Shown here in pieces: positions 31,548 through 60,515 of a stretch of DNA of 64,000 nt. How positions within the stretch are numbered: position 1 is the stretch's first letter; each line of letters begins with the position of its first letter. This DNA is from Turnera subulata. Its lineage: Eukaryota > Streptophyta > Magnoliopsida > Malpighiales > Passifloraceae. The notes beneath the pieces were generated by a model, which made no database searches, was not told where the DNA came from, and was given only the letters and a program-made list of their open reading frames with translations. Location of the stretch: contig JAKUCV010002493.1 of assembly GCA_028386065.3 (NCBI GenBank), forward strand, positions 83,139 to 147,138, given 5' to 3'. The translations under genes were made by a program, and so were the position numbers.

Positions 31548-31588
31548 CTAGCTCTCTGAAAGACTTAACCGTTTGAGAGAAACTTTCC

Positions 31589-32734: not shown

Positions 32735-32763
32735 AGAAACAAATTACAACTTTAGAAAGTAAC

Positions 32764-33262
32764 GTGGAAAAATTGTCTAAAGAAAATGTAAAACTTAAAG
32801 AAGAAAATGAACTCTACGGAAAGAAGAGTACTAATGAACCGAAAAGTCCAATTAAGGAATGTGCATCATGTAAATCACTAAAGGAACAAATTGAAGAACT
32901 TGAAACAAAAACTAGGGAGTGTTCGTCATGTGAGACATTAAAAGAACAAGTTAACGAACTTGAAACAACACTAAAGAAATTTAACACCCCTCAAAAGAAC
33001 TTGAATTCTCTCTTAGATAATTTGCAATCAACTAAACATGGAGTAGGATTCAAAAATGAGCCTAAGAAGAAGAAAATTGAGACTAAGCCTAGGAAACCTA
33101 AGGTTCAACCTAAGGAAAACAAGGTGAGTAAAGTGCACAAACATAGGCAACATAATAACTATTATCAACCTAGATGGATGCACAACCCAAACGTTATTTG
33201 CCATTATTGCAATAGAATAGGACACATTGCTCCTGTTTGCTTTACTAGGCATAGACATTGGG
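32764..33262 (+). CDS. SIRE-type gag-pol continuation with second zinc knuckle
   Basis: Coiled-coil-like Lys/Glu-rich segment with two CASCKSLKEQIEELE-like repeats (ECASCKSLKEQ and ECSSCETLKEQ), a Lys-rich basic stretch, and a second CCHC knuckle, CHYCNRIGHIAPVC. The frame runs into the N gap. Protease and the N-terminal half of integrase should lie in the gap. Confidence 0.8.
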
Positions 33263-36489: not shown

Positions 36490-36752
36490 ATTCATGCATT
36501 CTTTCATCATAATTATCACACATACAAAGATCATAAAACCTGAATTCTTTCATTACAGTCACACACACACACGCTCACACTATTTCATAATATTACAATC
36601 GCGCACACACTTACATCATTTATATTACACTACAATCACACATATTTTTTTAAACATACATACCTATCATAATCAAGCTCTTAACGATTTGGTACAGCAG
36701 TTACAGAGAAGCTATTAGGGTCATTGACTATATTAACCCTCACACTATCATT

Positions 36753-37364
36753 CTATGCAAACCACATTCCACCCGAGTTATTCTGGCCCGGGATTTCAAA
36801 CCGGTTCACTGATGGAAAATGGAGAGGGATGACCCCGTGGTTTTCGCCAGGTTGCCATAATGTCTCAGTGAGCAGAACCATGTTCGTTTTGTATTGGTTC
36901 TTCAGGTCTCTCAAGTTTCTTGCAAAATCTTCAGAGAGCCTAGTGATTCCCCTGCAATTCCACACTAGCAGGCGAACCTTTAGCCAAGTCGGTGGTAAGA
37001 CAGGGACCCGTGAAGCACTCTGAGCAGTCATTGAAAGATGGTAATAACTTCATTGTTCTAAGGTTTGATGGGTAGACTCTATTTGAAAACTTTCAAGCCT
37101 CTTAGACATGAAGAACATGGTGGCATTGGCGGTACCATAGAAGGATGTTCTAAGTGGGCTTTGACTCTCAAGAAAAATTGACTCTTCCATGGGTGTGACA
37201 AAAAACCTAGAAGAGTAGAGCTCATCAACAAATACTAAGCGAGGAATTCTACTTAGTTCATTAGGCAGCTCCTCAGATGGCTCACCTACCATACTATAGG
37301 CTAATCGGTTTCTCCTGCCTAAAGCTGCACCCTCAACCAAAAAGACAGTGGAAGGGGAAGGCAT
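36753..37364 (-). pseudogene. Antisense accessory gene homologous to 56618-57229
   Basis: Minus-strand frame from ATG at 37364 to the stop at 36753, interrupted by one in-frame TGA just after TLEQ (37050) where the relative at 56618-57229 has GGA. The N-terminal 120 residues have no family that I recognise (GRRNRLAY, RLVFVDELYSSRFFVTPMEE). The C-terminal 75 residues (LLVWNCRGI, NMVLLTET, GQNNSGGMWF) resemble the first part of the EEP endonuclease domain of plant LINEs, keeping the Asn of WN and the Glu of TET but lacking all later catalytic residues. A hydrolase activity is therefore unlikely. It has its own TATA box. It lies between pol and the sense accessory frame. Confidence 0.7.
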
Positions 37365-37437
37365 TCTTGCTTTTGATTTTTTTTTTTTTGCTAACTCTCT
37401 TACTGAAATTGGCTGATAATTTTCTGTGTTTCGTATG

Positions 37438-37448
37438 CCTATTTATAG
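37438..37448 (-). promoter_or_regulatory. TATA box of the antisense accessory gene (SIRE-type)
   Basis: Minus-strand CTATAAATAGG, about 75 bp upstream of the ATG at 37364. Farther upstream are three AGG-TGACCCCTACC-like repeats (37480-37585). Confidence 0.7.
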
Positions 37449-38006
37449 AAACACAACTATGATGCTTCTTCTCTCAGAAGGTGACCCCTACCAATTTCTG
37501 AAGTGTCCAGAGATTGTTCAGGAGGTGACCCCTACCTATCTTTGCAGTATCGAGAACAATGTTCAGGCAAAGACCCCTACTTCGATTTTCACGAATCTTC
37601 TTTTTTGAAAAAACTTGCCAATTAGTTAAATTATTGCTCAATCAATGTCTGCAACCTTACAAATTTTTCCGATTATCAAAGATTTTCTTTTTGACAATCG
37701 TGTTTTTAATTGAATTATTGATTCCTCACGAGATTTGTTGTCTGGCACCAAAACGGATACTTTCCGACAGAGATAATCAAAGTCCAATTGATGGGACAAA
37801 TATCTCACCAACCGTGTTTATATGACGAAGCTGATCCTATTTGAGAGTACCGGAAATTTCAAATTTTTTTTTTCTCTCTTACAATCTTCTCATTTCTTAG
37901 AGTTACATATTACTAACTTGAGCGTCGGAGCATTTTTTTAGTTATTTTGCAGGTACCCTTCATTTAAGCCAAAAGATAGGGGGAACAAGAAAGCCAAGAC
38001 TGCAAA

Positions 38007-38535
38007 ACATCGATGTTGCTCAACTGAACATCGATGTTCCTAATGTACAAACTTGGACCCGAGGCCGTCAAACATCGATGTTGAGGAGCCAACATTGATG
38101 TTGAGTAGACTTCAGCTCATACCATTCCCATCCAGCAGCTTCAAAACATCGATGTTCAGTATCGAAACATCGATGTTCAGTAAGTATTTTTTCTTCCCAG
38201 TAGTTTTAGACATCGATGCTTCCAGGTCAGACATCGATGTTCTGTCATTTCAGCTTACAATTTTTCCATCCAGTAGTTTTAAACATCGATGTTCTCATAT
38301 TCAAACATCGATGTTGTCTCAATTGGCGCCATTTCAGATTTTGTCCAGAAGCTCCACAACATCGATGTTGAACTTATGAACATCGATATTGCGACCTAAG
38401 CTTTCAAAAAATATAGCCGTTGGGGAATCAAACATCGATGTCTTCAACCAGAACATCGATGTTTGACCGTTAAAATTTCAAAAATATAGCCGTTGGCGAG
38501 CCTCAACATCGATGTTCTTTTGTCCAGACATCGAT
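38007..38535 (+). repeat. Array of AACATCGATGTT palindromes (internal)
   Basis: Sixteen sites in eight pairs with ATCGAT cores at 38009/38030, 38074/38094 (ATTGAT), 38148/38169, 38212/38233, 38285/38307, 38361/38382, 38434/38455 and 38508/38530. Distances within pairs are 20-22 bp; the pairs repeat every 64-76 bp. It ends about 95 bp before the internal TATA box. ATAGCCGTTGG motifs lie between the last pairs, as in the LTR. Confidence 0.9.
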
Positions 38536-38625
38536 GTTTACACGTTGTGATTCAAAAAAAAATAGTCGTTAAACTAGCCGTTGGAGCCTGTTGCAAGGAC
38601 TACAACGGCTCTATTTTTTGCTCCC

Positions 38626-38634
38626 CTATATAAG
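38626..38634 (+). promoter_or_regulatory. Internal TATA box for the sense accessory frame
   Basis: CTATATAAG about 100 bp upstream of the ATG at 38728 and about 97 bp after the last palindrome core, the same geometry as in the LTR. Confidence 0.7.
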
Positions 38635-38727
38635 AGATGCCTCCTTCGCTCATTTTACACACTTCCTACTGTTCATTCACTCTATCTTTACTCTCCACAT
38701 CATTCTCCTACTCATTTCTTCTCAAGT

Positions 38728-40029
38728 ATGGCAGGTGGAAAGAAGAGTTCCAAAGGCAAATCTCCCGCTAAGGAGAGACCATCCAAGCCAAGAGGAGGCT
38801 CCTCCAGCTCAGCCCCTCGCTATGCCGTAGAAGGCACCTCCAATTGGTTCCCTTCCAGGGCCGACCTTCACAACTTCATGACTCACTTCTCCAAGCGGCT
38901 CATTGCAACCCCTCGTTATCTTCCGACAATTTACCCTGCCATGAAGAATTACACACAGCTGGAGCCCCTTCTTCAAGCATCGGGATTATAGGGGTTCGTG
39001 ACCCACAGTCAGCTTCAATTCAGTGCCGACTTTGTACGAGCTTTTTACTCCACCCTCCGCCGAGATGGTGATAACCTGACTGCTCACGTAAATGGCGTCT
39101 CCATCAACATGACGTTGGAAGAATTTGGCACAGTTGCTGCCTTGCCCTTTGAGGGAGACAATATTGCATCATACGGAGGTGATCATTGGGCCACCATCCA
39201 TGAACCACCCTTCCTGAATGAGCTTGGCTTCACGACCCTTGTTCGTCACAGTTCCGGGAGGCCAACCATTCAGACAATCAACCCGGAGTACCGACTTCTG
39301 TTCTACCTTCTCACCCGGGTCATCAAGCCACGAGACGGCAACCACACAATTATATCCGTTGAAGATATAAAAGTGCTTCATGCCATCCTTCACCATGCCC
39401 CAATTAATTGGGCACGATTTGTGCTTATGCACATGTCAGACTATCCGTCCACCTTTCCTGACCATCCCTTACCATATGCCTTCCTAGTCGTGCGCATTTT
39501 GTTAAATGCAGGTGTCAATGCTCGCGTCGATGCACAGGTTCCTCACTCAAAATTTTGGACAATCGGTGATGCCACATTTCACAGCAGAAAATCTGTGGCA
39601 GAACCACGGACCGAACAACCTTCCGAGCAAGCTCCAAGCACTGCTCCAGCCGAAAGCTCCCGTGTTGCCGCTTCTCGACGCCGATCCTCCGGAGTCACTC
39701 TTGAATCCATTGCTGATTCCATCCATGGTCTTCAATTAAGCATGACAAGCATGAGCCGAGCAATAGAGAGGATTGACACGGAAGTACAACGACAAGGCCA
39801 CTCTCTTCGGTCTTACTTTGCCCGTGTGAACTACAATCCTCCACCGTATCACACCACACTTCATGGCTACAACTTTGACGATGAAGGTGATGATGATGAT
39901 GATGACTACACTGAAACTGTGGACGAAGATCCAATGGATGTGGAGGATGGTAAAGAAGGAGATGATGGTGAAGAAGGAGCAGCTGAAGAAGAAGAAGATG
40001 ATGATGGGAGCGAAAGCCCAACTTTCTAA
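38728..40029 (+). pseudogene. Sense accessory frame, putative plant transposon protein
   Basis: Starts MAGGKKSSKGKSPAK, a Lys/Ser-rich nuclear-type N-terminus, followed by a globular region with FSADFVRAFYSTLRRDGD, VNGVSINMTLEEFGTVAALP and INWARFVLMHM. This pattern matches the 'putative plant transposon protein' domain (PF20167 type) found 3' of pol in SIRE-like and other plant elements. The last 60 residues are almost all Asp/Glu. One in-frame TAG at 38989-38991 interrupts it; the frame is otherwise open. No membrane segment is visible, so it is not an envelope protein. Its role is unknown; a DNA- or chromatin-related function would be only a guess. Confidence 0.7.
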
Positions 40030-40254
40030 ACTCTTATCTCTTGTTATGTTTATGTCTTTTCAATTCAATAAAATGTTTCCTCTTTTCAATTCAATAAAAT
40101 GCTATTTCTTTTTGCTAATGCCAAAAGGGGGAAGATAAGAAGAAGTATATGCACCAAGTTAGGCGAATCATAGTTTGAAAAACATAGAGGGAATTACATT
40201 CATAAAACTTGGCATATACTCTTATTTGTTTGTCATTATAAAAAATGGGGAAAT

Positions 40255-41601
40255 TGTTAGAACTCATGTCTCCTTGTCTCATTTCAGGGTTTTGATATTG
40301 ACAAACAAAGCATGACTCAATTGATGACAATCAATCTTGAAGCAAAAAGAAATCAATCAAAGAACAAAGGTCCCAAGAGAAAAGAGCACAAGAATTGAAG
40401 TAACAAGCAAGATGGGTTAGGAACACAAAATGTACAAGGGTAAAACACTCAATTCTTCTAAAGACATTGGCTCAAAACAAAATCAATTTTACACATGCAT
40501 CAAATAGCACTCTATCAAACACAAAAATAATTTTTGAGTATTGAACATCGATGTTCATGTTTTAAAACATCGATGTTCCTGCCTAACAATGTTCTAGAAA
40601 ACAGGCAGTAGCCCAGAACATCGATGTTGGCTTCCCAAACATCAATGTTCTTGTGACCGTTGCACCTAAAACTCTTTGCAGCACCAGAACATCAATGTTT
40701 CAATTCAAGACATTGATGTTCCCTCAATTTGTTCTCTTTAGAATTTCGGCAGAGGCTCAAAACATCGATGTCCGAATGGCAAACATCGATGTTCCAACAA
40801 AGAACATCGATGTTCATCATTCAGACATCGATGTTCACATGATGCTCATCTTTAATCTGTTTTGGCAGTGTTTCAAAACATCGATGTTCCCTTGGTAAAC
40901 ATCGATGTTTTAGTGACCGTTGGCTTCAATAATTCAAATCCAACGGACAAACATCAATGTTGTGATATCCAACATCGATGTTGTGCCGTTAGAATCAAAA
41001 ATCCTTTTCCACCTTGCATGTTATCTTATCTAAAGGTGTTCAGAACTTATTCCCAACATCCATATAAGTTTTTGAAGCTATAAATAGAGGCATTAAACGT
41101 CTCTTTCAAATAGATCAACTCTCTACATTTTAAGCATTCATTGTTATACATTCATACACATTTTATGAGCCAATATTCTTGAGAATTGAGAGTTGCCTTT
41201 ATAGAGCTTTACTTGTTACTCATATCTACTCTTTGAGAGAGCTTTTGTTTGAGTTTTTTTTTAAAGTGTTGGTCATACACCTTAAGGGAGGATTGTTCCC
41301 TTGTAGCATCTCATAGGAAGAGTGTGAAGTGAGGTATTTTCAAGCAAGTAGAGTTTCGTGTGAGTCGGACTCTAGGATTGTGTACGGTTTGTTAAGCACC
41401 CGGAAGCTTAACCTAGATAGTGAAATCTTCGAGAGAGTCTCTCGGAGGACTGGATTAGCCACACAAATTGTGTGTGTGAACCAGTATAAAACTCGGTGTG
41501 TCCTTCATTCTTTCAATTCTGCAATTATATTCCTGCAAGTTTTTGATTTTGTTCATAAAACGCTATTCACCCCCCTCTAGCGTAGGGCACCTATTCTAAC
41601 A
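40255..41601 (+). repeat. 3' LTR of the SIRE-type element
   Basis: 1347 bp, preceded by AAAAATGGGGAAAT. Its palindrome array (about 40544-40985) keeps ten intact cores; four others have ATCAAT or ATTGAT, that is CpG changed to CpA or TpG. Confidence 0.92.
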
Positions 41602-41910
41602 GGTTAGACGTGTATTTTTCTTTAGAATGATGAGTCTTTTGAAAACTTGATGAGCCTATTCTTTGGATGATTGCCATAAATGAAGGAGGATTCGAAGGGT
41701 CCGCAAACATGCTCGATATAGACCAGCCGAGACCAGGAGCAGATGCCCCTAAGATAGAAGTAGAATTAATGAGAGTCGTTAGGGGCAGATACCCCTAAAC
41801 TAGAGTGGATAAAGATGTTGAGGGATAGGTACCCTAAGGACGTTGTCCCAACGTAGAGGAGCACCGAGCCAATGTAGATGAACCACAGGATGATCACCGT
41901 TAGCTCTTGG

Positions 41911-42540
41911 GACCAGGAAAATCCCAAGACCCTCGAGATGAGATGAGATCCTCACGGGAGGGCGACAATATCCCTAGTTAACATAGGTGAGAGGATCCTA
42001 GTTAGCAAAATCCCCAAAGGATGGTGATAATATCCTTTGTTAGCACAATCCCCACAGGAGGGTGATAATATCCTTAGTTGGCAAAATCCCCGCGGGAGGG
42101 TGACAATATCTCTAGTTAGCAAGATCCCCACGGGAGGGTGACAATATCCCTAGTTAGCAAAATCCCCACGGGAGGGTGATAATATCCTTAGTTAACAAAA
42201 TCCCCACAGGAGGGTGATAATATCCTTAGTTGGCAAAATCCCCACGGGAGGGTGACAATATCCCTAGTTAGCGAAATCCCCACGGGAGGGTGACTATATC
42301 CCTAGTTAGCGAAATCCCCACGGGAGGGTGATAATATCCTTAGTTGGCAAAATCCCCACAGGAGGGTGATAATATCCTTAGTTAGCATAGGTGAGATGGA
42401 CTTTTGTTAATGACTTTTGGGACCAGGAAAATCCCAAAAGAAACCCCGGGATGAGATGATTCTCGGTAGCTTTTGGGACCAGGAAAATCCCAAGAGATGA
42501 GATGAGACAATCACAAACCTCGGGATGAGATGATTCTCGA
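41911..42540 (+). repeat. 38-bp minisatellite and flanking repeats near the Tat 3' LTR
   Basis: About ten full copies plus a partial one (about 41950-42387) of a 38-bp unit, consensus AATCCCCACGGGAGGGTGAT followed by AATATCCTTAGTTAGCAA. Variants recur every fourth unit (CACAGG with TTGGC), giving a higher-order period of 152 bp. On both sides lie copies of TTTGGGACCAGGAAAATCCC (41915, 42415, 42473). Tandem repeats between the coding part and the 3' LTR are known in Tat-lineage elements and can seed satellites. Confidence 0.85.
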
Positions 42541-42662
42541 GGTGGAGCATCTGATGCTCCAACCATTGGTCCACAACAATCACATTCGTTATCCAAATTT
42601 GGTTGTTCCTTCCTTGCGTTGCTTCGTTTTTAAGTTTTAAAGACTCACCAATGAGGGGCATC

Positions 42663-44270
42663 TGTAAACACCCAAATTGGACCCATGAATTATATTGAGA
42701 TTAGACTCCAGACATGTTTGAATCATAAGATTGATAAGTTGGTCTTGGGTTGAAGCATGGATGGGGTTTAATTTTAGTAGAATTTATACGTTACAGTAAT
42801 TAAGACTTTTATATGCCTAGGATTAATGAGACGATTTAATCATAGAATATGTTAAGGACTAAATTTCTAAAATATATTTTATCTCATTAAATTTGGGCTT
42901 GTTTATTTATTAAACCCAATTATATTTATTCTTGGGTTGAAGATAAATATAAGGGTCCAATTTAATAAGGTATGGACTTTTCTTCAGAGTTGCACAGCCC
43001 ATTAACACCTTGCTTGCAGATAAATTTAGCTCTGATTTTCGTGGAAAATCAGAGTTAAATCATTCCTTAATAGAAAGGATGTTTTTGGTATGATTTTGGC
43101 TTAAAATGAGGAATCAATGTGTAATTAGTCAATTAGGAGATGATTGAGAGGAGTAGTATTCAAGAAAGCACAGCATTCTGGGCAGTCTAGGGGTTAATTA
43201 CGCGGTAGGATCAATCAGGGAGGAATTAGGGGAGAATAGGGACCGAAAAAGAAAAGAACGAGTGAGGCAAGTAGGTGCGGGCGGTCATCTCGGGATGACC
43301 ACCAGGCCTGGGCGGTCTTCCACCCATAACCGCTCGGCCTGGCTATCATCCATAGGATGACCACCTGCCATGGCGGTCATGCACCCCCAGAAACGCGTTT
43401 TCTCCCTGATTTTTGCCCGTAATCTGATTCTACTCGGTTTTGGCCTAGAGTTTTTGCCATTACCTTGATCATTAAGTTGGCCCACGCCCCTATGCTACCC
43501 AGAACACTATAAATAGGACCATCCTCTCATATTTCAAGAGACACATGCTATTACACAAACACTCTTCATAAAGCTTTGAAGCTTGGAGAAACTCTATCTT
43601 TCCAAGCTTAAGAAATAGTTCCATAGGCAAAACTCTGGTAGAATTTCGTGGGTAGCATCATCCATTAAAGGCAGCAAAGGGGAAAATCAAGAAGAACTCC
43701 AAGATTGAGTTGAGGAGTGGGAGGAAATTGTGTGAGAGGCACAACCCAAACTAAGGTGCTAGTGGAGGGCTACAAGAGGTAATCCTAATCCCTTTTTGTC
43801 TGACCAATTATTGTTGAAATGTTGATATTGATGATGATGTGATTGTTGTGATGCCATGTCAAGAACTACGTGGGCTTTGAACCCGGTCGCCGGGGTACGT
43901 AGGTGGTTTCTAGTGGTGGAAACTCATGCCCATTCTTCTTCTTCTCCCCTTTCTTTTTAATATTCAGTTATTATGTGTTTTGGTGCTCACACTTGCACAC
44001 TTGCACAAGGCATACAAAATCCTCTAATTGCACAAAGTTTCGCCCCAACATGGATGGGTGCCTAACACCTTCCCATCTGTGACGAATCCCCGGGTCCAGC
44101 ATCTTTGGTTCGCTATCCAGTAGCCTAAATGGAGTCACCTAAAGGGTTTTTCCCAAGTTTTTGTCCCTTAATAAAATTTGGGTGGCGACTCCAAAGATGT
44201 TGGATGATGGTTATGAAGAAGGTGTAAGGGAAAGGTGAATAGGCCCAAGTGCTTTTGGGTCGGGTATTCA
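42663..44270 (+). repeat. 3' LTR of the Tat-like element
   Basis: 1608 bp, TGTAAACACCC...GTATTCA, preceded by GAGGGGCATC. TATA box at 43507-43516. Many differences from the 5' LTR are C-to-T or G-to-A changes. Confidence 0.9.
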
Positions 44271-44339
44271 GATATATATGTATAAAAGTTACAAGAAAAT
44301 TAACAGAGGACACAAATCATGAAGGTAAAGCCCATGCAA

Positions 44340-44605
44340 CCGTCTATATCTTGTACAAAACTCAAATCACACTTGATACCTTTCCACTGGTGGAAAAAAA
44401 TCTGATGACATTAACAACCCATCCACAATGAAGTCCTAAATATTATTAGATCAAACTCTTTCCAAGTGGCTCTCTACATATATATCTCGTACAAAACTCA
44501 AATCACACTTGACACCTTTCCACTGGTGAAAAAAAACCCGATGACAATAACAACCCATCCACAATAAAGTCCTGAATATTATTAGATCAGACTCCTTTTC
44601 CAAGT
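44340..44605. repeat. Direct duplication of about 120 bp
   Basis: 44350-44465 and 44486-44603 share GTACAAAACTCAAATCACAC, the CCTTTCCACTGGTG block and ATTATTAGATCA with few differences. The second copy overlaps the LINE tail frame below. Confidence 0.7.
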
Positions 44606-44714
44606 CTATGACTTCACCTTTAAAAATAACCCTATCTCGTGATAGCCAAATAGACCATAGCAAAGAAAAGGATAACCCAGGAGGATCACGCCTAACTCTC
44701 ACTAGGTAAGTCAA
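44451..44714 (-). pseudogene. LINE ORF2 C-terminal fragment
   Basis: Short minus-strand frame containing SLLWSIWLSRDRVIFKGE, the motif that follows the zf-RVT zinc knuckle in plant LINE ORF2. No knuckle or RT remains. It is a decayed 3' end of an element unrelated in orientation to the LINE downstream. Confidence 0.6.
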
Positions 44715-46145
44715 ATCATTGGATAAATTTAGATTCCAGATCCATTGGTAAACAACACAGCATCCCCCACCATTAGCAAATTTTCATCTGTTTTTATAGA
44801 ATGATTATCGAAAAGGTTGGTGTATCTTGTTGATATAGTTAATACCTATCAAACCACTTAAGCTATTCTAAATTGTACAGTCTTATACCTATATAACTTG
44901 AAATCACTTCATTTAGGCTATTCTTAATTATATAGTCCCATACCTAACTACGAAATCGCTAAACTGTGTTACCCCATCCCTGCACAGTAAAAGAATCTTT
45001 TCTATTCGGGTATAGATTTGGTTCATTCATCTATCCTTCTGTCTAGAAGCCACCCAGAAGCCCCTCCTTGTCCACGTGCTCCTTGGCATCAACATACACT
45101 TCCTGCCTTTATCGACCCAAGGTGTCACACCTGTATCTATTTGAATCCTGGTATAACATATTACTAGAAGAGCTTCTTTATGTAGAATAATTAATCTCTA
45201 GAGATTTTAGTACATATAACATCTATAAGCTAAAGGAGGAGAAGCATATATTTGTTACACTGACCTTTCATTTGAGCACCACCATGTCAAAAGAGAGGGA
45301 GTTTGGTGTGAACTGTCAAACCTGTCAAAAAAGATGGTAATGCGGATCTATCCCTGTAGTTGTTTACCATTGAGCCAAGTACTCATTTTCCATCTCTGGT
45401 GGAGGTTGGTGTCATGCCATTATTGGCCTGTTTTGAGGGCCTTGCATCATGACTCCAGGTTTACATCTCTTGATCCATATCAAATTCTGCATGCATGGAT
45501 TGATATATGGCCATTGCGGAATGAACAAGTTGTTTCTAGTTACTCGTCTTGGTTGTAGACGGAATAGAGGAGGTCTACATTCACCTAATGAACCAATTTG
45601 CTCAATAAAAAAACCCATTCCTTATGGTTTTGTTTGACTTGGTCAGCCTTTAGAACTTTCAAGGGTTTGCGCTTCTTGGCTGCACCAAGAATTAGATCAG
45701 ACAGCTCTTACTAGTTTTCATATTTCGTTGCTCGATGGTCTTTGTGGACACACTTTCCTTGCCTTTGGATTTTCCTCGCCAAGTTGGGAATAATCTCACT
45801 ATAGTTTTCTTGGATTTTGGTTGGGATCTTTAGCGCATAATCGAATAACACTTACATGGTATCTTTCCCTCTACATCTAAAGATCGTAGCTCTTTGATAA
45901 TTCTAATTCAATACCTTCGTTCTCCCTTGTAGACATCTTGCTGAGGTGATTGTGCCACCGTTCTGTCGCCGGTGCACACTCATTCAACGGCTAACGATTC
46001 ATCCTCCTCACAACATACTACTCAGATAGTCGCTTCAGGTCCTGTTCAGGCGTGTCTAGTAGAAAACCAGCATTCATAGTCATAGGATCCCTTAAATTTA
46101 AGACCCATAATTCAAGGAACCCACACTGACGCCCAGCCGCCTTCC
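44715..46145. other. Mostly unrecognised; possible degraded LINE 5' part
   Basis: No intact gene. Since a plus-strand LINE frame begins at 46146, the right-hand part (about 45300-46145) may be its 5' region with a ruined DUF4283-type ORF1 start, but I see no motif that proves it. Confidence 0.35.
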
Positions 46146-46856
46146 ATGGGACAGTCCTCACAGTCCCCTATGTTGATCCCCTCTGAATTGTCAAAGCATA
46201 CTGTGGTCCACCAAACCCCATCTCACCAGCCCAGGTCATCCAACCCTCACAACTCACCTATCAGTTCACTTAAGGCCACCTGCAAAGCCCACGAAGCCCC
46301 CATAACTCATGTGACGACTTCTCCTATGTTGGGCCTGCCTAACCATTTCGGGCCTGAAAATGAGACAAGCCTCCCCCTAGACCCCTATATGCCCACTCTC
46401 GCATCTAAGAGCACAATTAACCTCAGCCCATCCCCCACTCAACTTCCTTATCCTGAGAGTGTGGCGTCTTCCTCACATTCATTTAGTAAGCCCTCACTCT
46501 ATGATGCTGTCGAGAAACAAGTCCTGGCTATCCTAAGGAATATGGGAATTAACGGGTTGCAGCAGAAGAGGAGCAGATACTTATCTAAGCATGGGAGTAT
46601 TATCTCCACCCCAAAGAGCCATCTATCTATTTCCGATTCTGACATCCGTGATGCTAATAAAAGAGTCTTGAAGAAAGCTGGTGATACCAGTGACATCCCG
46701 ATTTCCTTTAATTCCTTAGAAGTTTCTGAGATAAATAGAGTTGGGGATTTAAATGGATGGGATCGTTCTAGTAATATGGAAGACGACGAGCACTTGGTTT
46801 CTGCTCTAGTGGAGAAAGAAGCCGTGGATTGGGTGAATGCTAGGGCATCTGCCTAG
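46146..46856 (+). pseudogene. LINE ORF1-like frame, partial
   Basis: 236-codon frame rich in Ser, Pro and His, without recognisable RNA-binding motif, lying just before and overlapping the start of the endonuclease frame. Position and composition fit the variable C-terminal part of the ORF1 (gag-like) protein of plant L1 elements. The N-terminal DUF4283 and zinc-knuckle parts are not visible. Confidence 0.5.
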
Positions 46857-46890
46857 CTTCCACTCCATTGACCTGTGTCCTATCATTGCT

Positions 46891-47581
46891 ATGATCTGTA
46901 TTCTCTCTTGGAATATCAGGGGCATATGCTCCTCCCAAAAGCTGAGACATGTGCGCAATCTTATTTATCAATGGAATGCTAATTTCTTGTTCATTTGTGA
47001 ATCTAAATGTAGTGGTGTGGATTTACCTTTCTGTCATAAGCTATGGGGTGCCGGGAATATAGACTTCATTTCTGTTGATGCCAGAGGTTCTGCTGGCAGC
47101 TTAATATTGATATGGGACTCTGATGTGTTCGAATTGTCTCATTATAAATGCTCTGAGAATTGTATTATTGTTGAGGGTATTATCTTACCTGGTGGTCAAT
47201 GTGTATCTATATGGCGGTGTTTATGGCGACTCTGAGGTAGGCTCCCGTATCCAAATGTTTACTGACCTTACAGCACTTAAGTCTGTTTTCCCGACTCCAT
47301 GGTTAATCATTGGGGACTTCAATGAGACTTTACATCATTCGGATCAAAAGAGTGGCAGACTTTTCAACAGAGGTGTCGCCGCCTTTCGTGATTTTATTCA
47401 AAGTCTTAATTTGGTCGAATTTGCTTTAAGGGATCGGTTCTTAACCAGGGGAAACTATAAATACGCAAGTCAAATCGATAGGGCCTTCACTGAAGGAGAC
47501 TGGTCTATCTTCTTCCCATTTTTGTGTTTAAAGTTGGGCAGCAAGCAATCCTCTAACTGCTGTCCTCTCATTTTATCCTAA
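46891..47581 (+). pseudogene. LINE ORF2 EEP endonuclease
   Basis: Apurinic-endonuclease-like domain that nicks target DNA for LINE integration. It begins ILSWNIRGI (catalytic Asn) with FICESK (catalytic Glu) in the frame ending 47235. After a frameshift near 47200, the frame ending 47581 has WLIIGDFNETL (catalytic Asp/Asn) and a degraded C-terminus. The frame break makes it inactive. Confidence 0.85.
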
Positions 47582-47647
47582 GAAAAGCTGTGGTGGGGTG
47601 TCAGATCGTTTCGTTTTATTGCTGCATGGTGGGAGTATCTGGGCTTT

Positions 47648-49306
47648 TTGGATGTAATTGCAAACATGTGGAATGAAGCCTCTACAGCCTTTCCTAGGAA
47701 GTTCTGTCTTCTTAAGAAACTGAGCTTGCTTCGTAAACTGCTGTCCAGGTGGAATAAAAGGGTTTTCGGCAATGTAAAGGAGGCCTTTGTTACTATACAA
47801 GCAGACCTGGATCAATTGGATAAAGCTGTTGAGCTGCGTGACTTGTCAAATCAAGAGTCTTCCCTAGTACATGATCTGAAGGTGGATTTTTCTCTGAAAA
47901 GCAAACAGTTGGAGTCTATGTGGTGGCAGAAAGCTAGAATTAAGTGGTGCAAACTTGGGGACCAAAATTCTCGTTTCTTTCATATATCGGCTTGTGTTAG
48001 GGGAAGGAAGAACAGGATCAACCATCTATGGTGCAACAACCAACTTGTTTCTGACCCAGTGGAGATTAAGGAGCTGATGAGGGATTTCTTCGCTAACTTA
48101 TATGCCTGTAACACTAAGTGCAGACCCTCCATCGGATCTATTCTGTTTCGCCTCTCGATTCAGCAACCGCCAATGACTTAGAACGACCTTTCACATTGGA
48201 CAAGATCAAAGAAGCACTTTAGAGTTATGATAGTTCCAAGGCTCCAGGACCCGACGGATTTTGTTTTTCCTTCTATAAGAGATGCTGGCACCTAATCAAA
48301 GATGATGTGTGCAATGTGGTTTTACATTTTTTCTCAACAGGTTAATTACTGAAAGGGGCAAATTCTGCATACATCACTCTTATTGCAAAAAAGGTTGGTG
48401 CAGAATCTCTCTATGACTTCAGACCCATAACGCTCGTTAGTGGAATTTATAAGATAGTATCTAAACTACTTGCATTGAGGTTGAAAACTGTGTTGCCGAT
48501 TTTGGTTGAGAATCAACAAACGGCATTCATCAAAGGAAGGAACATTGCTGATGGTGCATTACTAGCTTGTGAAGTCGTTCAGACCTTGAGAAAGTCTAAG
48601 GACAAGGTGGTGCAGTGGAAACTCGATTTCAAGAAGGCTTACGACTCTATTGATTGGTCGTATTTGATTGATGTGCTGACAGCTATGGGTTTCGGGTCTA
48701 AGTGGATAATGTGGATTAAGGCATGTTTATTTTCCTCCTCCCTAGCTGTTCTAGTTAACGGCTCTCCAACTGCAGATTTTGGAATTGGTCGGGGCCTCAA
48801 ACAAGGCTATCCCCTCTCTCTATTCTTGTTTAATTTGGCTGCGAAGGGCTACCTTGCATTCTGTCCAGAGGCTCGGCTTTACATCTCATTAATGAGGTAT
48901 CAGTACATGGCATCCCTCTTTCTATCCTTCAATACGCAGATGATACCATCCTTTTCTCTCAAGCGGATCTGCACTGCTTACTAAATCTGAAACGGTGTCT
49001 TAGTGTTTTTGAAGCTTTGTCAGGTGTAAGCATCAACTTCTACAAAAGTAGTGTGATTGGCATTGGCCTTCGACACCACCAAGTGGAGGATCTTGCTAAT
49101 AGGCTTCACTCTCGGGGGGATCACTTCCCACTTAACTATCTCGGATACCAGTTGGGTGTGAATATGAGTAGAGTGGCAGCATGGAAGCCAGTATTGGACA
49201 AGTTTTCCAACAAGTTGAAGGCGTGGAAAGGTAAACACCTATCGATCGGGGGGAGGGTGACACTCATTAAGGCTGTCCTGAGTGGTCTACCTATTTATTT
49301 CATGCC
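47648..49306 (+). pseudogene. LINE ORF2 reverse transcriptase
   Basis: Connector with KLGDQNSRFFH and RKNRINHL (frame to 48181), then the RT fingers with SKAPGPDGF (48235-48260) and FRPITLV, LDFKKAYDSIDW and GLKQGYPLS in the frame 48475-48984. The catalytic TACGCAGATGAT (YADD) at 48933-48944 is in a different frame, followed by GVSINFYKS and YLGYQLG in the frame from 49017. At least three stops or shifts occur. The solo LTR at 49312 interrupts the thumb region after LPIYFMPL. Confidence 0.88.
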
Positions 49307-49311
49307 ACTTC
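49307..49311. repeat. Target-site duplication ACTTC
   Basis: ACTTC at 49307-49311 and 52245-52249 exactly flanks the solo LTR. Confidence 0.9.
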
Positions 49312-52244
49312 TGAAACGCCCCGACCCGTATTTACCGTACACATTAAACACGTGCCGGAACTGTGACGACCCAACCAAACTAAGCCCAGCATACAGTGTA
49401 TACAACAGAAACTCGGGCTCAACAGCCCAAAATAAGAACATCAATAACATCATAACCGGCCCAATGGCCCAACAATAGCAATATAATGCATAGCGGAAGA
49501 CTTAATAACTCACAAGGACACTGTATGCGACACTGATGCAACCTATGGATCCAAGTCCTGTCCAAGGGATAACGCTGCAGCCTGTCTGGAATGCAACAAA
49601 CCTGTACCACAGATAATCCATCCTACGGGATGAAAGCCCGCAGGTGAGGGGTGAGTCCGAAGTGCTCACCGACGAAGGATAGATAATCAATATGCAACAC
49701 TATGAGTACTCAAGGTCAAAAACAGGCAAAAACCACCAAATACATACCAAACCAAAAACTCGACCCAAAACTGGTCCAAGACCAAAAAGACTAAAACAAA
49801 AATCCAATTTTCCAATTTTATCTTTCCGGGCCCCGTCACGGATAAGCTAGCGGTCATACTTGGTTATCAACATATTTCGGGTGCCAGACCAAATCCAAGA
49901 GAACCCAGGGATCGACATCCCAAAAATAAGAACCCAAGGATAGACATCCCAAGCATAGACATGCTTATCACAAGAACCCAGATCATGGCCACCACAAAAC
50001 AGTCTTAAACCATCGAGTCGTACCACTACTTACCACGTGATAATTATATTATCATCTTTCATAATCAAATCACAAGGATCAACATCCCTAACCAAAATGC
50101 CGGGATAGATATCCCATCCAAAACCGAGGATCGACATCCTTATCACATTTTATTATTTAGTCCATTTTATTTAATGCCAAAAAGACTCAAGGATAAACAT
50201 CCAAAAACCAATCAAGATACTGGGATAAACATCCCGACAACAATCAAGACAATGGGATAAACATCCCGAATCAAACCACAACAAATGCAACACCCAACAA
50301 TGCAATAATCATCAAACACAATAACCGAGTAATACAGGCACATATTGAAGGAAATCCATCCTCACCTTGGCCGATTACTCAACTCCGGAGACAATGTCCG
50401 GTCCGAAGTCGGCACCTCGGAAACTGCCCGATATCCGAACCTATACAACAAAACAATATATACACATAAATCAACATAATCAGTATGCTATGATGCCAAA
50501 ACTGCGAAATAACCCATCCTGGTTCATATCCTTTATTATCATCTTTTACCATAATTATCCCTTTTTCCGAAAATATATCATATGCATATAAGGTTACAAA
50601 AATATATTTCCAAAACTATTAAATCAAAATATTTTCATAAAATAATATACCTTTTCCAAAATAATAATTACCATAATTTTTTTGGAAATTATAACATATG
50701 TATATATTTTCCATAATATTTCCATAAAAATTATTATACTTTCCAAAATATAATTTCCAAGTATTATTATCTTTAGAAAACTCCATTTCCAGAAAGTATA
50801 TTCACATAAACTTATTTTTTGAAAATAAATACGAATTTATAAATACACATATATATTTCCAACATAAAATACTTTTCCAAATAATTACATTATCAAAATA
50901 ATTATATATTTCAGAAATATAAATCATGTATACCATATATATTTTTCAAAGTTAATTACCATAATTTTCCTGAAAAATAATAACGTATTTATAATTTCCA
51001 GAAAATATATACAGTATTTATCTTTTTCTAAATAAACATAATATTAATTTTCTAAAACAACATTTAATTATCTTAATTTTGAAGAATCAAAGTATATATA
51101 TTTTCTAAACCCCAAACCCAGAATAATACATATAATTTTTCAAAATAATATCTACCCTTTTTCTTCAAAAATTAATTAGCAGAAAATAGTTACATATATA
51201 TAAATATATATTTTTTTAAAAAAAAATAAAGGAATCCGGACTGCCCAGAACCCAACCCAGGCGCGACCCGGCCGCGACCCGCCCAGACGAATCGGGTCTC
51301 ACCTTAGGAACGGCGGTCGGCGGCGCGACAACGCGAGGGGAAACTGGCGCGGGCAAGAGGAGACGCTGGCGACGCGAGGAGCGGTGGAAGGGCGGCACTG
51401 CGTCGTCGGCAAGAGGCGGCAGCCGTGGAGAAGTCAGATCCGCGGGTCGCACGGCGGGTCAACGGCACATCACGGCGTTTCGGTGGACGGAAAGGCACGG
51501 GGGCGACGGCAACAAGTCGGCGACATCATGGCGAGCATGCTGGTGGCGGCGGTACGACGAGTGGCGGTGCCGATCGTCTTCCCGTGAACAATAACCCGAG
51601 GGAGAGGAGGGTGACGAACTGTTCACTCCCGGGTTTTCCTTTTTTTTCTTTCTTTTTTCTATTTTCTTTCCATTTTTTTTTCATTTTCTTTTTTTTTCTA
51701 TCTTCTGTATTTATTTTTTTTCTTCTTCTCTTTTTTTTTTTCTTTTCCCTCTTCTCTTTTTTTCCGATTCCTATTTTTTCTTTTTTTTCTTCTTCTTTTT
51801 TTTATTTCTTTTCTTTTTCTCACTCTTTTTTTTTTCCTCTCCTTTTTTCTCTCTCTCTCTCTTTTTTTTTCCTCTCTTCCCCTCCTCTTCCATTCTTCCT
51901 CTGCTTCCGATTTATAAACCGTGAAAATACTGTACAACGTGTGATCATTCAATAATGCAGCTTGTCTGCATTATGAAGCGAGTCCGGTCCGGACCAGAAA
52001 ATAACTGATACCCCCTTAGTTATTTTTCGGTGTGATTTTCCTGAGGACTTCGGGACCAGAAAAATACCAACTTTGGTCCGTAAAATCCACGGAAAAATCA
52101 CAAGCGCGGGAAAACCCTCGGTTTCAAAAAATGACGCCCGATTTACCTTGAATTAATTACCCAAGATTAATTCATTCGGTAAATTGTTGTAAAAAGACTT
52201 TTACAGTCCCGGTAAAAATCCAAATTTTTACCCGAGCTGTTACA
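49312..52244 (-). mobile_element. Solo LTR of the Tekay-like non-autonomous family
   Basis: 2933 bp, with the same termini and internal structure as 57577-60510 and a perfect target duplication of its own. No internal region adjoins it, so it is the product of LTR-LTR recombination after an insertion independent of the element to the right. Confidence 0.92.
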
Positions 52245-52258
52245 ACTTCTCTGAATGC

Positions 52259-52263
52259 CGCTT
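52259..52263. repeat. Target-site duplication CGCTT
   Basis: CGCTT at 52259-52263 and 60511-60515 flanks the complete element. Confidence 0.9.
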
Positions 52264-55171
52264 TGAAATGCCCAGACTTGTATTTACCGTACACAGTAAA
52301 CACGTGCCGGAACTGTGACGACACAACCAAACTAAGCTCAGCATACAGTGTATACAGCAGGAGCTCGGGCTCAACAGCCCAAAATAAAAACAATGATAAT
52401 AACTCAACCGGCCCAATGGCCCAATAATATCAATAAACTGCACAGCCGAAGACTTAATAACTCACAAAAACACTGTATGCGACATAGATGCAAACTATGG
52501 ATCCGAGCCCTGTCCAAGGGATAACGCCGCAGCCTGTCTGGAATGCACCAAACCTGTACGACAAATAACTCATCCTACGGGATGAAAGCCCGCAGGTGAG
52601 GGGTGAGTCCGAAGTGCTCACCGACGAAGGATAGACAATCAATATGCAACACAGTAATTACTCAAGTCAAAAACAGGCACAACAGCCAACCCAAAAGACT
52701 CGACCCAAAACTGGTCCAAGACCAAAAAGACTAAAACAAAAATCCAATTTTATCTTTCCGGGCCCCGTCACGGACAAGCTAGAGGTCAGACCTGGTTATC
52801 AACATATTCCGGGTGCCAGACCAAATCCAGAGAACCCAGGGATCGACATCCCAAAAATACGAACCCAGGGATAGATATCCCAAAAATAATCATGGGATAG
52901 ACATCCCAAGCATAGACATGCTTATCACAAGTAACCCAGGTCATGGCCACCACAAAACAGTCTTAAACCATCGAGTCGTACCACTACTTATCACGTGACA
53001 ATTATATTATCGTCATCAAAATCAAGTCACAGGGATCAGCATCCCTAACCAAAATACCGGGATAGACATCCCTATCCAAAATCAAGGATCGACATCCTTA
53101 TCACAATTTATTATTAATTCCATTACACTTTAAACCAAAAAGACGCAAGGATAAACATCCAAAAACCAACATGGGATAAACATCCCGACAACAATCAAGA
53201 CCATGGGATAAACATCCCGAACCAAACCACAGCAAACCACAGCAAATGCAACATCCAACCAAGCAATAATCATCAAACACAATAACCGAGTAATACAGGC
53301 ACATATTGAAGGAAATCCATCCTCGCCTTGGCTGATTACTCAACTCCGGAGACAATGACCGGTCTGAAGCCGGCTCCTCGGGAAACTGCCCGATATCCGA
53401 ACCTATACAACAAAACAATATATACACATAAATGCACATAATCAGTATGTTATGATGCCAAAACTACGAAATTACCCATCCCGATTCTTATCTTTTATTT
53501 TCATCTTTTACCGGAAATATTATACCGTACGTATCTCCGAATATAATTTCGGTACCATACTTTAACTAAAACTCTTTCAAAAATATTTTCATAAAATAAT
53601 ATACTTTTTCCAAAATAATAATTACCATAATTTTTCTGGAAATTATAACATATGTATATATTTTCCATAATATTTCCATAAAAATTATTATACTTTCCAA
53701 AATAAAATTTCCAAGTATTATTATCTTTAGAAAACTCCATTTCCAGAAAGTATAATCACATAAACTTATTTTCTGAAAATAAATACGAATTTATAAATAC
53801 ACTTATATTTTTCCAAACATAAAATACTTTCCAAACAATTACATTATCAAAATAATTATATATTTCAGAAATATAAATCATGTGTACCACATATATATTT
53901 CCAAAGTTAATTACCATAATTTTCCAGAAAATTAATAACATATTTATAATTCCCAGAAAATATATATACAATATTTATCATTTCATAATTATATATGATA
54001 ACATTTTTTTCAAAACAAAGCATAATTATCAAGGTATATATATACGTACATTTTTCCCTAAAACCATAAATCATACTTTCTATATTTTTCTCAAAGTGAA
54101 TATATATATTTTTTTTGAAAATTAAATACCAGAATAATTATATAAACAGATTTATATATATATATATTTTTAAAAAATAAAACAACCCAACCCGGCAATC
54201 CAGGAGGTTGCGACCCGGACACAACCCGACCAGCACAACGGGTCCTCACCAAGCAGCGGCGCGACGCAGCGCGGGGAAGGTGTCGCGAGGCGCGGCATGA
54301 TACATCGACTCCACAGGCGGTGGAAACCCGGGCGCGACGGCGCTGGAGGCTGAGCAGGCGCGGAGGAAGACGGATCCGCGGGTTTCGCCACGGGTCAACG
54401 GCGCTTCGGTGGACGGAAGGCGACGGAGGCAGCGGGGCTGAGCTCACGACGGCACGGCGAGCGTGCTGCTGGGGTCGGTGTCATGCACGGCTGACCGAAG
54501 CTCTTCGAGGTGAACAGTAACCGAGGAGAGGATCCGGGTGACGCACTGTTCACGTTATTTTTTTTCTTTTTCTTTCTTTTTTTCTATTTTCTTCTTTTTC
54601 TTTCTATTTTCTGTTTTTATTATTTTTTTTCTTCTTCTCGTTTTTTTTTCCTCTTCTCTCTTTTTTTTTCTCTGTTTTTCTGTTTTTTCTCTTTTTTTAT
54701 TTCTTTTCTTTTCTTTTTTTTCCTTTTTCTTTTCTTTTTTTTTCTCTCTTTTCTTCTTTTGTCTCTTTTGTTTTTTCTTCTCCTTTTCTCTCTTTTTCTC
54801 TTCTTCCTCTTCTCCTGCTTTCTTCTTCTTCTTCTTTCATAAACGATGAATTACTATGCAGCGTGTGATCATCCAATAATGCAGCTTGTCTGCATTATAA
54901 AGCGAGTCCGGTCCGGACCAGAAAATAACTGATATCCCCTTAGTTATTTTCCGGTGTGATTTTTCTGAGAATTTCGGGACCCGAAAAAAAATACCGGCTT
55001 AGGCCCGAAAAATTCACGGAAAAATCACGAGCGCTGGAAAACTCTCGGTTTCGAAAAACGACGCTCGATTTACCTTGAATTAATTGCCCAAGATTAATTC
55101 TTCTGGTAAATCACTATAGAAAGACTTTTACAGTCCGGTAAAAATCCAAAATTTTTACCCAGGCTGTTACA
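52264..55171 (-). repeat. 3' LTR of the non-autonomous Tekay-like element
   Basis: 2908 bp. Holds, from left to right on the plus strand: the conserved two-hairpin block 52574-52633, a GGGATnnnCATCCC palindrome field (about 52835-53220), an AT-rich kilobase, a GC-rich island (54190-54540) and a polypyrimidine tract (54555-54840). Frames of phenylalanine and leucine in that tract are low-complexity artefacts. Confidence 0.9.
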
Positions 55172-55279
55172 GTCTACCCACCTTAAAAAGAATTTTGTCC
55201 CCGAAATTATGTCTTATCCGTGGGTCCTACCACGATAAGCTTCTGGCACACTCTGCCAGGTGTCCAAGCTCAACGCGTT

Positions 55280-55322
55280 ATGTCGCTTATACCCTTAAGC
55301 GACATCTCATCCTCTATAAAAA
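55280..55322 (+). promoter_or_regulatory. Inverted repeat and TATA box of antisense gene 1
   Basis: ATGTCGCTTA (55280-55289), 6-bp spacer, and its exact complement (55296-55305), then TATAAAAA at 55315-55322, 35 bp upstream of the ATG at 55357. The short leader suggests that transcription starts very close to the ATG. Confidence 0.65.
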
Positions 55323-55356
55323 CCAAACCTCATGACTGGCATACTCACACACAGTC

Positions 55357-55734
55357 ATGGACTCTCCAATCCGATCTCGTACTACCTCTGACTCCGAGAA
55401 CAACAGCTATATCGGTGGTATTGCCTTCCTGACAAGCTCCGATGAAGAACCTCCGAAGAAACACTTCAAGACGAACATTATCGGCCTGAAAGAACACATG
55501 GTGGTCTCCAGCAGACGGCGTAAGAAGCGTGCTGACAAGAAAGCTGAAGATCGAAAGGGCAAGGCGACGGCTGAAAGTAGCACTCCGCAGCAGATTCTGA
55601 CGCAGCTGAACATCTCACTGAAGAAGATCAGCTCGGCGGTGATGCAGATCGAACAGGCGTGCGCGGAACTCTTCCCTCACGTGAAGAACGTACAAAAGCT
55701 TGTAAAAGACTTAGAGAAGCAAGTAGCTCCATAG
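55357..55734 (+). CDS. Antisense gene 1: small basic coiled-coil protein
   Basis: 125 residues, complete frame with ATG and stop. Residues 1-40 are Ser/Asp-rich; residues 50-70 hold a bipartite-like basic cluster (SRRRKKRADKKAEDRKGK), probably a nuclear signal; residues 75-125 have a heptad-like pattern (ILTQLNISLKKISSAVMQIE, then VQKLVKDLEKQV) predicting a coiled coil. Codons are GC-richer than the surrounding AT-rich DNA, and the downstream sequence has AATAAA-like signals (about 55765-55778). It lies antisense to the host element, near its 3' LTR. I recognise no family; a DNA- or protein-binding role is inference from composition only. Confidence 0.65.
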   Translation: MDSPIRSRTTSDSENNSYIGGIAFLTSSDEEPPKKHFKTNIIGLKEHMVVSSRRRKKRADKKAEDRKGKATAESSTPQQILTQLNISLKKISSAVMQIEQACAELFPHVKNVQKLVKDLEKQVAP

Positions 55735-56480
55735 AGTACTTCTTCTCCTGTTGTATAACTGTTATAAAATAAATAAAATAAGCTTTCTTTTTAAATCAAA
55801 AACTCTTGTTAAATTGTGAAAACTTATGCTAACAGAAAGATAAAAACATCCCAAAGCAAAAAAAAAATCAACAATAAGGATATAAAATCAAATATAAAGA
55901 AATTAAAAACAAAACTCGTTTAACAAAATCAAAACATAAAGAAATTAAAACCAAAAACATGTTTTCATGATCGGCGCTCGTATCGGACGTGAACATCCTC
56001 GAACCCAAGAAACGTGACATGCATAGCTAACGGTGACGTCGATTCCCTCGTGGAAAAGACATCCATTAACTCGCATGGTGACGATCACGAGAGCGTCCTG
56101 TGTCCCTCGAAAGAAACATACCCACTTGTCCACAAATTCCGCATGAGCCAAAAACATCTGTCAAGTCTCGTATCCCTCCATGATGTCCGAGCAGGTGTAA
56201 GCTTGTCGCACATGCGCTCTACTCGAGGTATGGTCCCATCAGTCTAGCCTCAACGGTCACGGATGCATGTGATAAAAGATGCGGGAAAATGTATTAAAAC
56301 CATGAAAAGAAAGGACAAAGTAGCCCGGGCGAAAGAAAACCGTGAGATGGAAAAGGGCTGAAAAACACTGGCATTGTAGCCCGAAAAACGTATAAAGTAA
56401 CGAAACAATAAATGAAACAACGGCAAAATTTGCAAAAAAGCAAAACCTTGAAAATTGAAAACAGTAATCACGCTCCTCAT
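55735..56480. promoter_or_regulatory. Intergenic region between the two antisense genes
   Basis: Non-coding. 55960-56250 is GC-richer and holds TGACG-type motifs (GGTGACGTCG near 56031, GGTGACGATCACG near 56080), which are bZIP-like sites, and several ACATCC half-sites resembling those in the LTR palindromes. I see no coding motif. Confidence 0.4.
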
Positions 56481-56484
56481 AAGA

Positions 56485-56493
56485 GTATAAAAG
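56485..56493 (+). promoter_or_regulatory. TATA box of antisense gene 2
   Basis: AGTATAAAAG region, flanked by the 6-bp inverted arms CGCTCC and GGAGCG, about 130 bp upstream of the ATG at 56618. Confidence 0.6.
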
Positions 56494-56617
56494 ACGGAGC
56501 GGTGAGGTGTAAATCATCAAAAGCATTTTAAAGCAACAAACGCTCAGAAAAACAAAACCACAACGCTCAGAAAAAAAAACAAAAAAAAAAACAAAATACC
56601 CACGCTTCCAAAACACG

Positions 56618-57229
56618 ATGTCTGCTCCTTCATCCTTCTTCTTCTTTGAAGGTGCCAATCTAGGCAGAAGGAACCGTCTGGCCTACAACATGGTCAACGA
56701 GCGTCCAGAAGAATTACCGAACGAGCTCGGCAGGATGCCACGTCTGGTCTTCGTCGACGAGCTCTACTCATCGAGATTCTTCGTCACTCCAATGGAAGAG
56801 ACGTTCTTCCTAGAGGACCATGGCACTCTGAGGACCTCCTACTACGGCTCGGCAAACTCCATCATGTTCTTCATCTCCGAAAGACTTCAGGAGTTCAACC
56901 TAGAGTCCACTTGCCACTTCCTGGAGCAAGGCACCTACTACCAGCTCTCGATGACGGCCCAAAGCATGCCCAGAGTCACTCGGTTACCCGTAACTTGGCC
57001 CAAGGCCCGACTACTGGTGTGGAACTACAGAGGAGTCGCTAGGCGTTCCCAGGAGTTCTCGCGTACTCTGAGGGACCTGAAGAACCAGTACAAGCCAAAC
57101 ATGGTTCTTCTCACGGAGACCCAGTGGCAGCCTCAAGACGATCACGGTCTCATCCCACTCCGGTTCCCTCAAGCAAACCGGTTCGACCTTCCCGGCCAGA
57201 ACAACGCAGGCGGCATGTGGTTCTCGTAG
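56618..57229 (+). CDS. Antisense gene 2: conserved accessory protein with EEP-like end
   Basis: 203 residues, intact ATG-to-TAG frame. Residues 1-125 form an unrecognised domain (GRRNRLAYN, ELPNELGRMPRLVFVDELYS, RFFVTPMEE). Residues 130-203 resemble the first part of the LINE-type EEP endonuclease (LLVWNYRGV, MVLLTET, GQNNAGGMWF); later catalytic residues are absent, so endonuclease activity is not expected. A collinear, interrupted homologue lies antisense in the SIRE copia at 36753-37364. In a 31-codon stretch (EELPNEL... to ...TPMEE), 22 codons differ silently and only 2 change the residue. GC-rich third positions contrast with AT-rich ones in the other copy. It ends about 350 bp before the 5' LTR of its element. 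Confidence 0.75.
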   Translation: MSAPSSFFFFEGANLGRRNRLAYNMVNERPEELPNELGRMPRLVFVDELYSSRFFVTPMEETFFLEDHGTLRTSYYGSANSIMFFISERLQEFNLESTCHFLEQGTYYQLSMTAQSMPRVTRLPVTWPKARLLVWNYRGVARRSQEFSRTLRDLKNQYKPNMVLLTETQWQPQDDHGLIPLRFPQANRFDLPGQNNAGGMWFS

Positions 57230-57561
57230 AGCAACAGCATCACGGTCAACATCAACAATGACCCCAACAGCTTCAGGGTCAACGTCGTTCCGAGAAGATA
57301 AATGTATTTTCATTTTTTTTATATAAAATATCAATGTAACAATTATGTTTGTAATTATATTATTAGCAATATTAATAATATTTACATTTCTGCTTATTTA
57401 TGGCATCATTACCTCTTATGTGTATGTTCTGCGACAGCTGGCGTCCCTTGACTGGATCCATAATGCACTAACTAAAATGATATAAAATAATAAACAACTG
57501 GAGCGAACTATGCAAACAAGAACAACAACACACAAAGACTGCCCAACAAGACCTAACGCCC

Positions 57562-57573
57562 GCTCCGCTACCA
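57562..57573 (-). promoter_or_regulatory. Primer-binding site of the non-autonomous Tekay-like element
   Basis: Minus-strand TGGTAGCGGAGC, 3 bp from the LTR end at 57577; it fixes the element orientation. Confidence 0.8.
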
Positions 57574-57576
57574 AAA

Positions 57577-60510: not shown

Positions 60511-60515
60511 CGCTT

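Follow-up and report, generated by a model that had tools for sequence, protein, structure and literature searches.

Antisense accessory genes of plant long terminal repeat (LTR) retrotransposons have been recorded since the 1990s, their function being unproven (PMC7264820). They are known in Grande (gene23), RIRE2, Retand (ORF4) and PvRetro13 (PMC7264820, PMC11963269), and for Grande an own antisense promoter and a nuclear product were reported (PMC7264820). The passages of the review that deal with these aORF-3R genes mention domains such as TRP28/SMC, with no clear similarity otherwise and none to other transposable elements (PMC7264820). In bdelloid rotifers, accessory open reading frames (ORFs), the ORF3 types, were apparently exchanged across distant retroelement types, i.e. 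LTR elements and Penelope-like Terminons (PMC5408684). In this work, we focused on an antisense gene, here called gene B, found twice in a 64,000-nucleotide stretch of the Turnera subulata genome (assembly GCA_028386065.3, contig JAKUCV010002493.1, positions 83,139 to 147,138, forward strand; hereafter the window), a region of plant repeats in which elements are nested within one another. One copy lies in a SIRE-like copia element and the other in an element of gypsy type. We consider it fairly probable that gene B serves plant LTR retrotransposons as an antisense accessory gene, that it moved between a SIRE-like copia lineage and one of gypsy type, and that selection on the encoded protein has maintained it.

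Gene B resembles gene23 of Grande, ORF4 of Retand and the genes of RIRE2 and PvRetro13 in being antisense and conserved (PMC7264820, PMC11963269). Unlike these genes, it is common to a copia and a gypsy-type element, has a C-terminal part weakly similar to a long interspersed nuclear element (LINE) and carries a shared amber codon. The rotifer ORF3 types likewise appear to have moved between very different retroelement types; they belong to other families (DEDDy, GDSL, CC, TM), and the passages describing them hold no antisense accessory ORF (PMC5408684).

From ATG to amber, the gypsy-type copy occupies 56618-57229 on the plus strand (203 codons and TAG) and the SIRE copy 36753-37364 on the minus strand. 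An earlier note on this DNA, prepared from the sequence by a model, had described two collinear homologous ORFs of about 200 residues, and the alignment bore this out: the copies are collinear without gaps and share 69% identity over 203 residues (tblastn within the window, E 7e-95). Two points had escaped that note, which treated the SIRE protein as intact and residue 203 as its end. Codon 105 of the SIRE copy is an in-frame TGA (37050-37052), and in both copies the amber codon at position 204 (57227-57229 on the plus strand in the gypsy-type copy) is followed, at the same place, by 23 in-frame codons and TAA (57230-57301, plus strand, in the gypsy-type copy; 36681-36752, minus strand, in the SIRE copy). 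Nucleotide identity is 67% before TAG and 58% after it, and drops to 36% over the 69 nt that flank ATG upstream and over the 69 nt that flank TAA downstream. The conserved unit is ATG-TAG-TAA.

The SIRE-like copia element (30184-41601, plus strand) is bounded by LTRs at 30184-31533 and 40255-41601 that are 96.8% identical, with a 5-bp target site duplication (TSD) GGTTA. The domains RVT_2, SH3_retrovirus and Retrotran_gag_2 are present, i.e. copia pol and gag, and its layout fits a SIRE-like placement: the sense 3' ORF carries PF20167, and palindromes cluster in the LTRs and before that gene. Gene B, with its extension, lies at 36681-37364, between pol (ORF end 36489) and the 3' LTR. The gypsy-type element (52264-60510, minus strand) has complete ends, with a 5' LTR at 57577-60510 and a 3' LTR at 52264-55171; these 2.9-kb LTRs are 96.2% identical and are flanked by a perfect 5-bp TSD, CGCTT, at 52259-52263 and 60511-60515. 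Its minus-strand orientation was judged by eye from what we take to be sequences like a primer-binding site and a polypurine tract. Neither gag nor pol, reverse transcriptase included, was found with Pfam in its 2.4-kb interior (55172-57576), where 10 of the 34 stop-to-stop ORFs were scanned; the label of gypsy type, and likewise the Tekay-like label of the earlier note, thus reflects the look of the LTRs, as we presume it for that lineage. In both elements gene B is antisense to its own element, as the earlier note had stated, and lies in the internal region; this is the orientation of the aORF-3R (or eORF-3'R) genes.

Gene B is not a chance ORF: in 500 dinucleotide shuffles of the gypsy-type interior, none yielded an ATG-started ORF as long as 203 codons. 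As also noted earlier, each copy is preceded by a TATA box, at 56486-56492 (plus strand, 132 nt before ATG, with a second match at -227) in the gypsy-type copy and at 37441-37447 (minus strand, 83 nt before ATG) in the SIRE copy; chance alone would give about 0.25 such matches in 160 nt, which makes each box weak singly. From these boxes, gene B may possess a putative antisense promoter of its own.

The two copies bear the mark of selection on the protein. Once the TGA codon was removed, 202 codons were left, over which the proportion of differences was 0.164 at replacement sites (pN) and 0.905 at silent sites (pS), i.e. a pN/pS of 0.18 (bootstrap 95% 0.14-0.24). A ratio near 1 over the full alignment had been named beforehand as an outcome that would speak against selection, and it is not what was found. 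The two parts of the gene behave alike (pN 0.173 and pS 0.975 in the N-terminal part, 0.149 and 0.787 in the C-terminal part). Maximum likelihood over the same codons gave a dN of 0.20 and a dS of 2.6; LWL85 and YN00 returned no dN/dS estimate because silent sites are saturated. Since pN is so far below pS with silent sites saturated, the data support that selection preserved the gene B protein over the whole alignment. The earlier note had counted 7 identical, 22 silent and 2 replacement codons in a stretch of 31; this count is exact for codons 31-61, which form the most favourable stretch, the full 227 codons (amber excluded) comprising 61 identical, 94 silent and 72 replacement codons, where the TGA position and the two codons next to amber are counted in the last figure, as replacement.

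The antiquity of the divergence, also put forward in that note, is in part inflated by composition. The gypsy-type copy has a GC content at third codon positions (GC3) of 70%, against 45% for the SIRE copy, and the silent differences from the gypsy-type to the SIRE copy are biased (68 from G/C to A/T against 22 in reverse); because of this GC3 shift and of the one-way silent differences, dS overstates age. In the SIRE-like element, GC3 is 24% in pol and 44% in the sense 3' ORF, so the composition of the antisense gene is unlike that of its host's pol. The gypsy-type copy lies next to non-coding DNA of 38% GC.

Could gene B be a functionless fragment of one element inserted into the other? Nested insertions are frequent in the window, and the earlier note had itself named fragment insertion as an outcome that would undo its proposal. 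The homology ends at ATG and at TAA, replacement sites are conserved while silent sites are saturated, and the pN/pS ratio refutes this explanation, to which we give almost no credence; recent copying, which the earlier note had already doubted, is rejected on the same saturation and on flanks that are at chance. It may also be asked whether the antisense transcript matters rather than the protein, e.g. as a silencing trigger or a decoy RNA, since antisense transcripts of LTR elements were proposed to form double-stranded RNA (PMC7264820). We regard this as very improbable, conservation being organized by codon: over 204 codons, 50, 24 and 129 differences fall at first, second and third positions, respectively.

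In the extension past the amber codon, 14 of the 23 residues are identical between the copies, which none of 200000 codon shuffles matched; 10 of these 14 residues use different codons, and differences at the three codon positions number 5, 7 and 17. As the extension is conserved with silent sites saturated, constraint on it persisted after the copies parted. That a conserved stop has conserved codons behind it suggests readthrough, here in two copies only, and two cannot prove amber bypass. If TAG is ancestral, ribosomes must pass it at times, and we put bypass of the gene B amber codon at a little short of an even chance. Suppression of a stop codon is also reported in the SIRE lineage, for the envelope-like gene of SIRE1; there the stop lies between pol and the envelope-like gene, on the sense strand, and the gene is unrelated (PMC2829016).

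The chief competitor of bypass is that each copy, while ageing, acquired the common TAG by a nonsense mutation of its own; active members would then encode one uninterrupted protein of 227 residues without recoding. LTR divergence of 3.2-3.8% makes both insertions old enough to decay, 0.44-0.50 nonsense hits being expected per gene since insertion; the SIRE copy does have a second, private stop, and a recoding signal was not found. Coincidence at the same codon is another matter. The two copies have 61 and 62 codons one step from a stop, and the hits expected to turn the codon at position 204 into TAG are 0.0064 and 0.0054 per copy, from which we estimate the coincidence at about 0.4% a priori and at about 3% given the stops present (two in the SIRE copy and one in the gypsy-type copy). 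On balance we hold the two mutations to be a serious possibility, somewhat less probable than their absence. A different way around the stop would be splicing, the AG of TAG serving as 3' splice site and yielding alternative products. A short T-rich stretch indeed precedes this AG in both copies, which also share 14 GT positions upstream. A scan with a donor pattern gave a single candidate in the gypsy-type copy and no candidate in the SIRE copy, and the would-be intron is itself under coding constraint, which makes splicing improbable.

As for the identity of the protein, residues ~126-170 resemble, at weak E-values, the start of a LINE-type EEP endonuclease. A profile built from both copies found only one other match in the six-frame translation of the window, namely the EEP start of a local LINE (46837-47232, plus strand; E 0.0066, profile positions 127-170); the LINE piece at 46882-47232 itself matches PF03372 at E 0.0037, under the curated cut-off. 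Compared with this piece, the C-terminal parts before TAG scored above all but a few shuffles (reached by 0 of 5000 for the gypsy-type copy and 1 of 5000 for the SIRE copy), and the N-terminal parts were at chance (2395 and 4355 of 5000). The truncated EEP start proposed in the earlier note is thus sustained by the LINE profile and by these shuffles, with weak statistics and no Pfam match before TAG. What gene B partly has in common with the LINE piece are the WN.RG start, an acidic ET-type motif and a glycine-rich stretch of the EEP superfamily (PF03372); it differs from that superfamily in comprising the domain start only, in lacking the late catalytic residues, which we take to be Asp and His, and in having no robust Pfam match. 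Gene B ends early in the domain, hence without the full EEP catalytic set. In Pfam, neither the whole proteins nor the pieces before TAG had a match; among four pieces, that of the gypsy-type copy with its extension matched PF03372 (E 0.014), its 15.6 bits, the best value for gene B, remaining below the curated cut-off of 24.5. That the extension completes an EEP match was rejected, since this Pfam match depends on the placeholder set at TAG and the extension by itself resembles the LINE piece no more than shuffles do. The first ~125 residues had no match in Pfam, in PDB searched by sequence or in the protein collection described below, and the only PDB matches of gene B by sequence (E 0.15-0.89) were judged to be chance.

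The LTRs of the two elements have no detectable DNA match to each other, yet the gene B proteins are 69% identical, which points to a transfer between superfamilies. Such an exchange could have occurred by template switching between element RNAs, which fits better than two captures because orientation, start and ends are the same in both copies. The alternative is two separate captures, in which a host gene family or a LINE supplied the gene to each element and no exchange took place. The likeness of the C-terminal part to a LINE endonuclease start would agree with this, and plant eORFs are thought to have had multiple, independent sources, as far as the passages concerned go (PMC6317226). Both copies, however, have the same layout of N-terminal domain and EEP start, the same ATG, TAG and TAA and the same antisense orientation, and limited searches of the protein collection found no host relative; independent capture therefore appears unlikely to us.

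Several observations weigh against gene B as a selected and transferred accessory gene with amber bypass. Its known copies are two only, and that of the SIRE-like element is broken by the TGA at codon 105. No relative was found in a protein collection holding plants (including Centaurea, Trifolium and Citrus), either at E<=0.001 (22 candidates) or at E<=10 (560 candidates), a search that depends on words in common and on similar length and that says little on rarity, repeat genes being often unannotated; none was found in viral or prokaryote contigs either, using a peptide-pattern prefilter. The context CARYYA, which we take to stimulate readthrough, is absent at the TAG of both copies, and the 70 nt folded after TAG in each copy showed no structure beyond that of shuffles. 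The extension alone has no Pfam match and compares with the LINE piece as chance sequences do (4111 and 3318 of 5000 shuffles), and the PF03372 match was lost when two other placeholders stood at TAG (0 of 5 pieces). AlphaFold models of the two sequences were of very low confidence, with a mean pLDDT of 36.5 and 34.1, and nothing was drawn from them.

With these points in mind, gene B as an exchanged accessory gene could work as follows. Antisense within the internal region and behind its own TATA promoter, it would produce a protein of 203 residues and, where ribosomes partly bypass the shared amber codon, a form of 227 residues as well. Normal nuclease action would be excluded because the C-terminal part stops well before the later catalytic residues, and binding of nucleic acid or of a host factor would be likelier. 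The protein would act in trans on a host pathway and not on the proteins of one element, because the elements that carry gene B have unrelated LTRs and one of them lacks recognisable gag and pol; such a host-directed role is quite conceivable, if short of even. The likeliest pathway would be the relief of silencing, a step that we hold doubtful and for which plant viruses offer a precedent, a readthrough product that suppresses silencing being reported there (PMC11166343). In short, gene B is best read as a transferable antisense accessory gene of the aORF-3R kind, with a putative role that would be directed at the host.

Further features of the two elements deserve mention. The gypsy-type element holds a candidate second antisense gene, gene A (55357-55734, plus strand, 125 residues), with a TATA box at 55315-55321 (plus strand), 42 nt before ATG, and a GC3 of 62%. 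It gave only weak coiled-coil type Pfam matches below the cut-off, no relative in viral contigs and only weak tblastn matches in the window (E>=0.18); as 47 of 500 shuffles reached its length, it was rejected as a proven gene. With intact LTRs and TSD and no recognisable gag or pol, the gypsy-type element resembles LARD-type and other non-autonomous LTR elements, from which it differs in carrying one conserved and one candidate antisense gene. A near precedent is given by non-autonomous Retand elements with antisense ORFs (PMC11963269). The gypsy-type element is surrounded by a LINE, at about 46.1-49.3 kb and 60.5-61.8 kb. Also inserted in this LINE is a solo LTR from the family of the gypsy-type element (49312-52244, 82% identity, TSD ACTTC), which lies 19 bp from the full element and has a separate TSD.

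In the SIRE-like element, the sense 3' ORF with PF20167 (38728-40029), as read by eye, appears to begin with the ATG at 38728, which follows a TATA-like sequence, and contains an in-frame TAG at 38989. The palindrome ACATCGATGT occurs in 35 copies (30496-30910, 38007-38537 and 40545-40981), all of which fall in the LTRs of this element or directly upstream of its sense 3' (env-like) gene; the layout of these clusters is like that of the repeat-motif clusters described for Sireviruses, from which their core differs (PMC2829016). Within the pol ORF, a tandem duplication of 209 bp with 99.5% identity covers 35611-36029. Elsewhere in the window, a tandem array with a unit of about 335 bp (16388-18889) adjoins an LTR beginning near 18905.

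By titles and the beginnings of abstracts, no plant antisense gene common to copia and gypsy elements was described among the literature matches listed, nor does any of these matches, on the same basis, describe the combination seen here, in which a copia and a gypsy-type element have the same antisense gene, a common amber codon and conserved sequence after it. Size may have contributed: a large published survey applied a minimum of 250 codons (PMC6317226), so that gene B, at 203 or 227 codons, would be missed by it, and such genes may have been widely overlooked. The pattern of gene B points to gene exchange between superfamilies. Since one gene is present across a copia and a gypsy-type element, its function need not rest on the proteins of one element, and the candidates narrow to host-directed roles, which can be tested. 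Tentatively, superfamilies of plant retrotransposons may trade an antisense, host-directed gene, derived in part from the start of a LINE endonuclease, made in two forms through a conserved amber codon and carried even where gag and pol are missing, which would then belong to a common pool of helper genes rather than to the replication machinery of one element.

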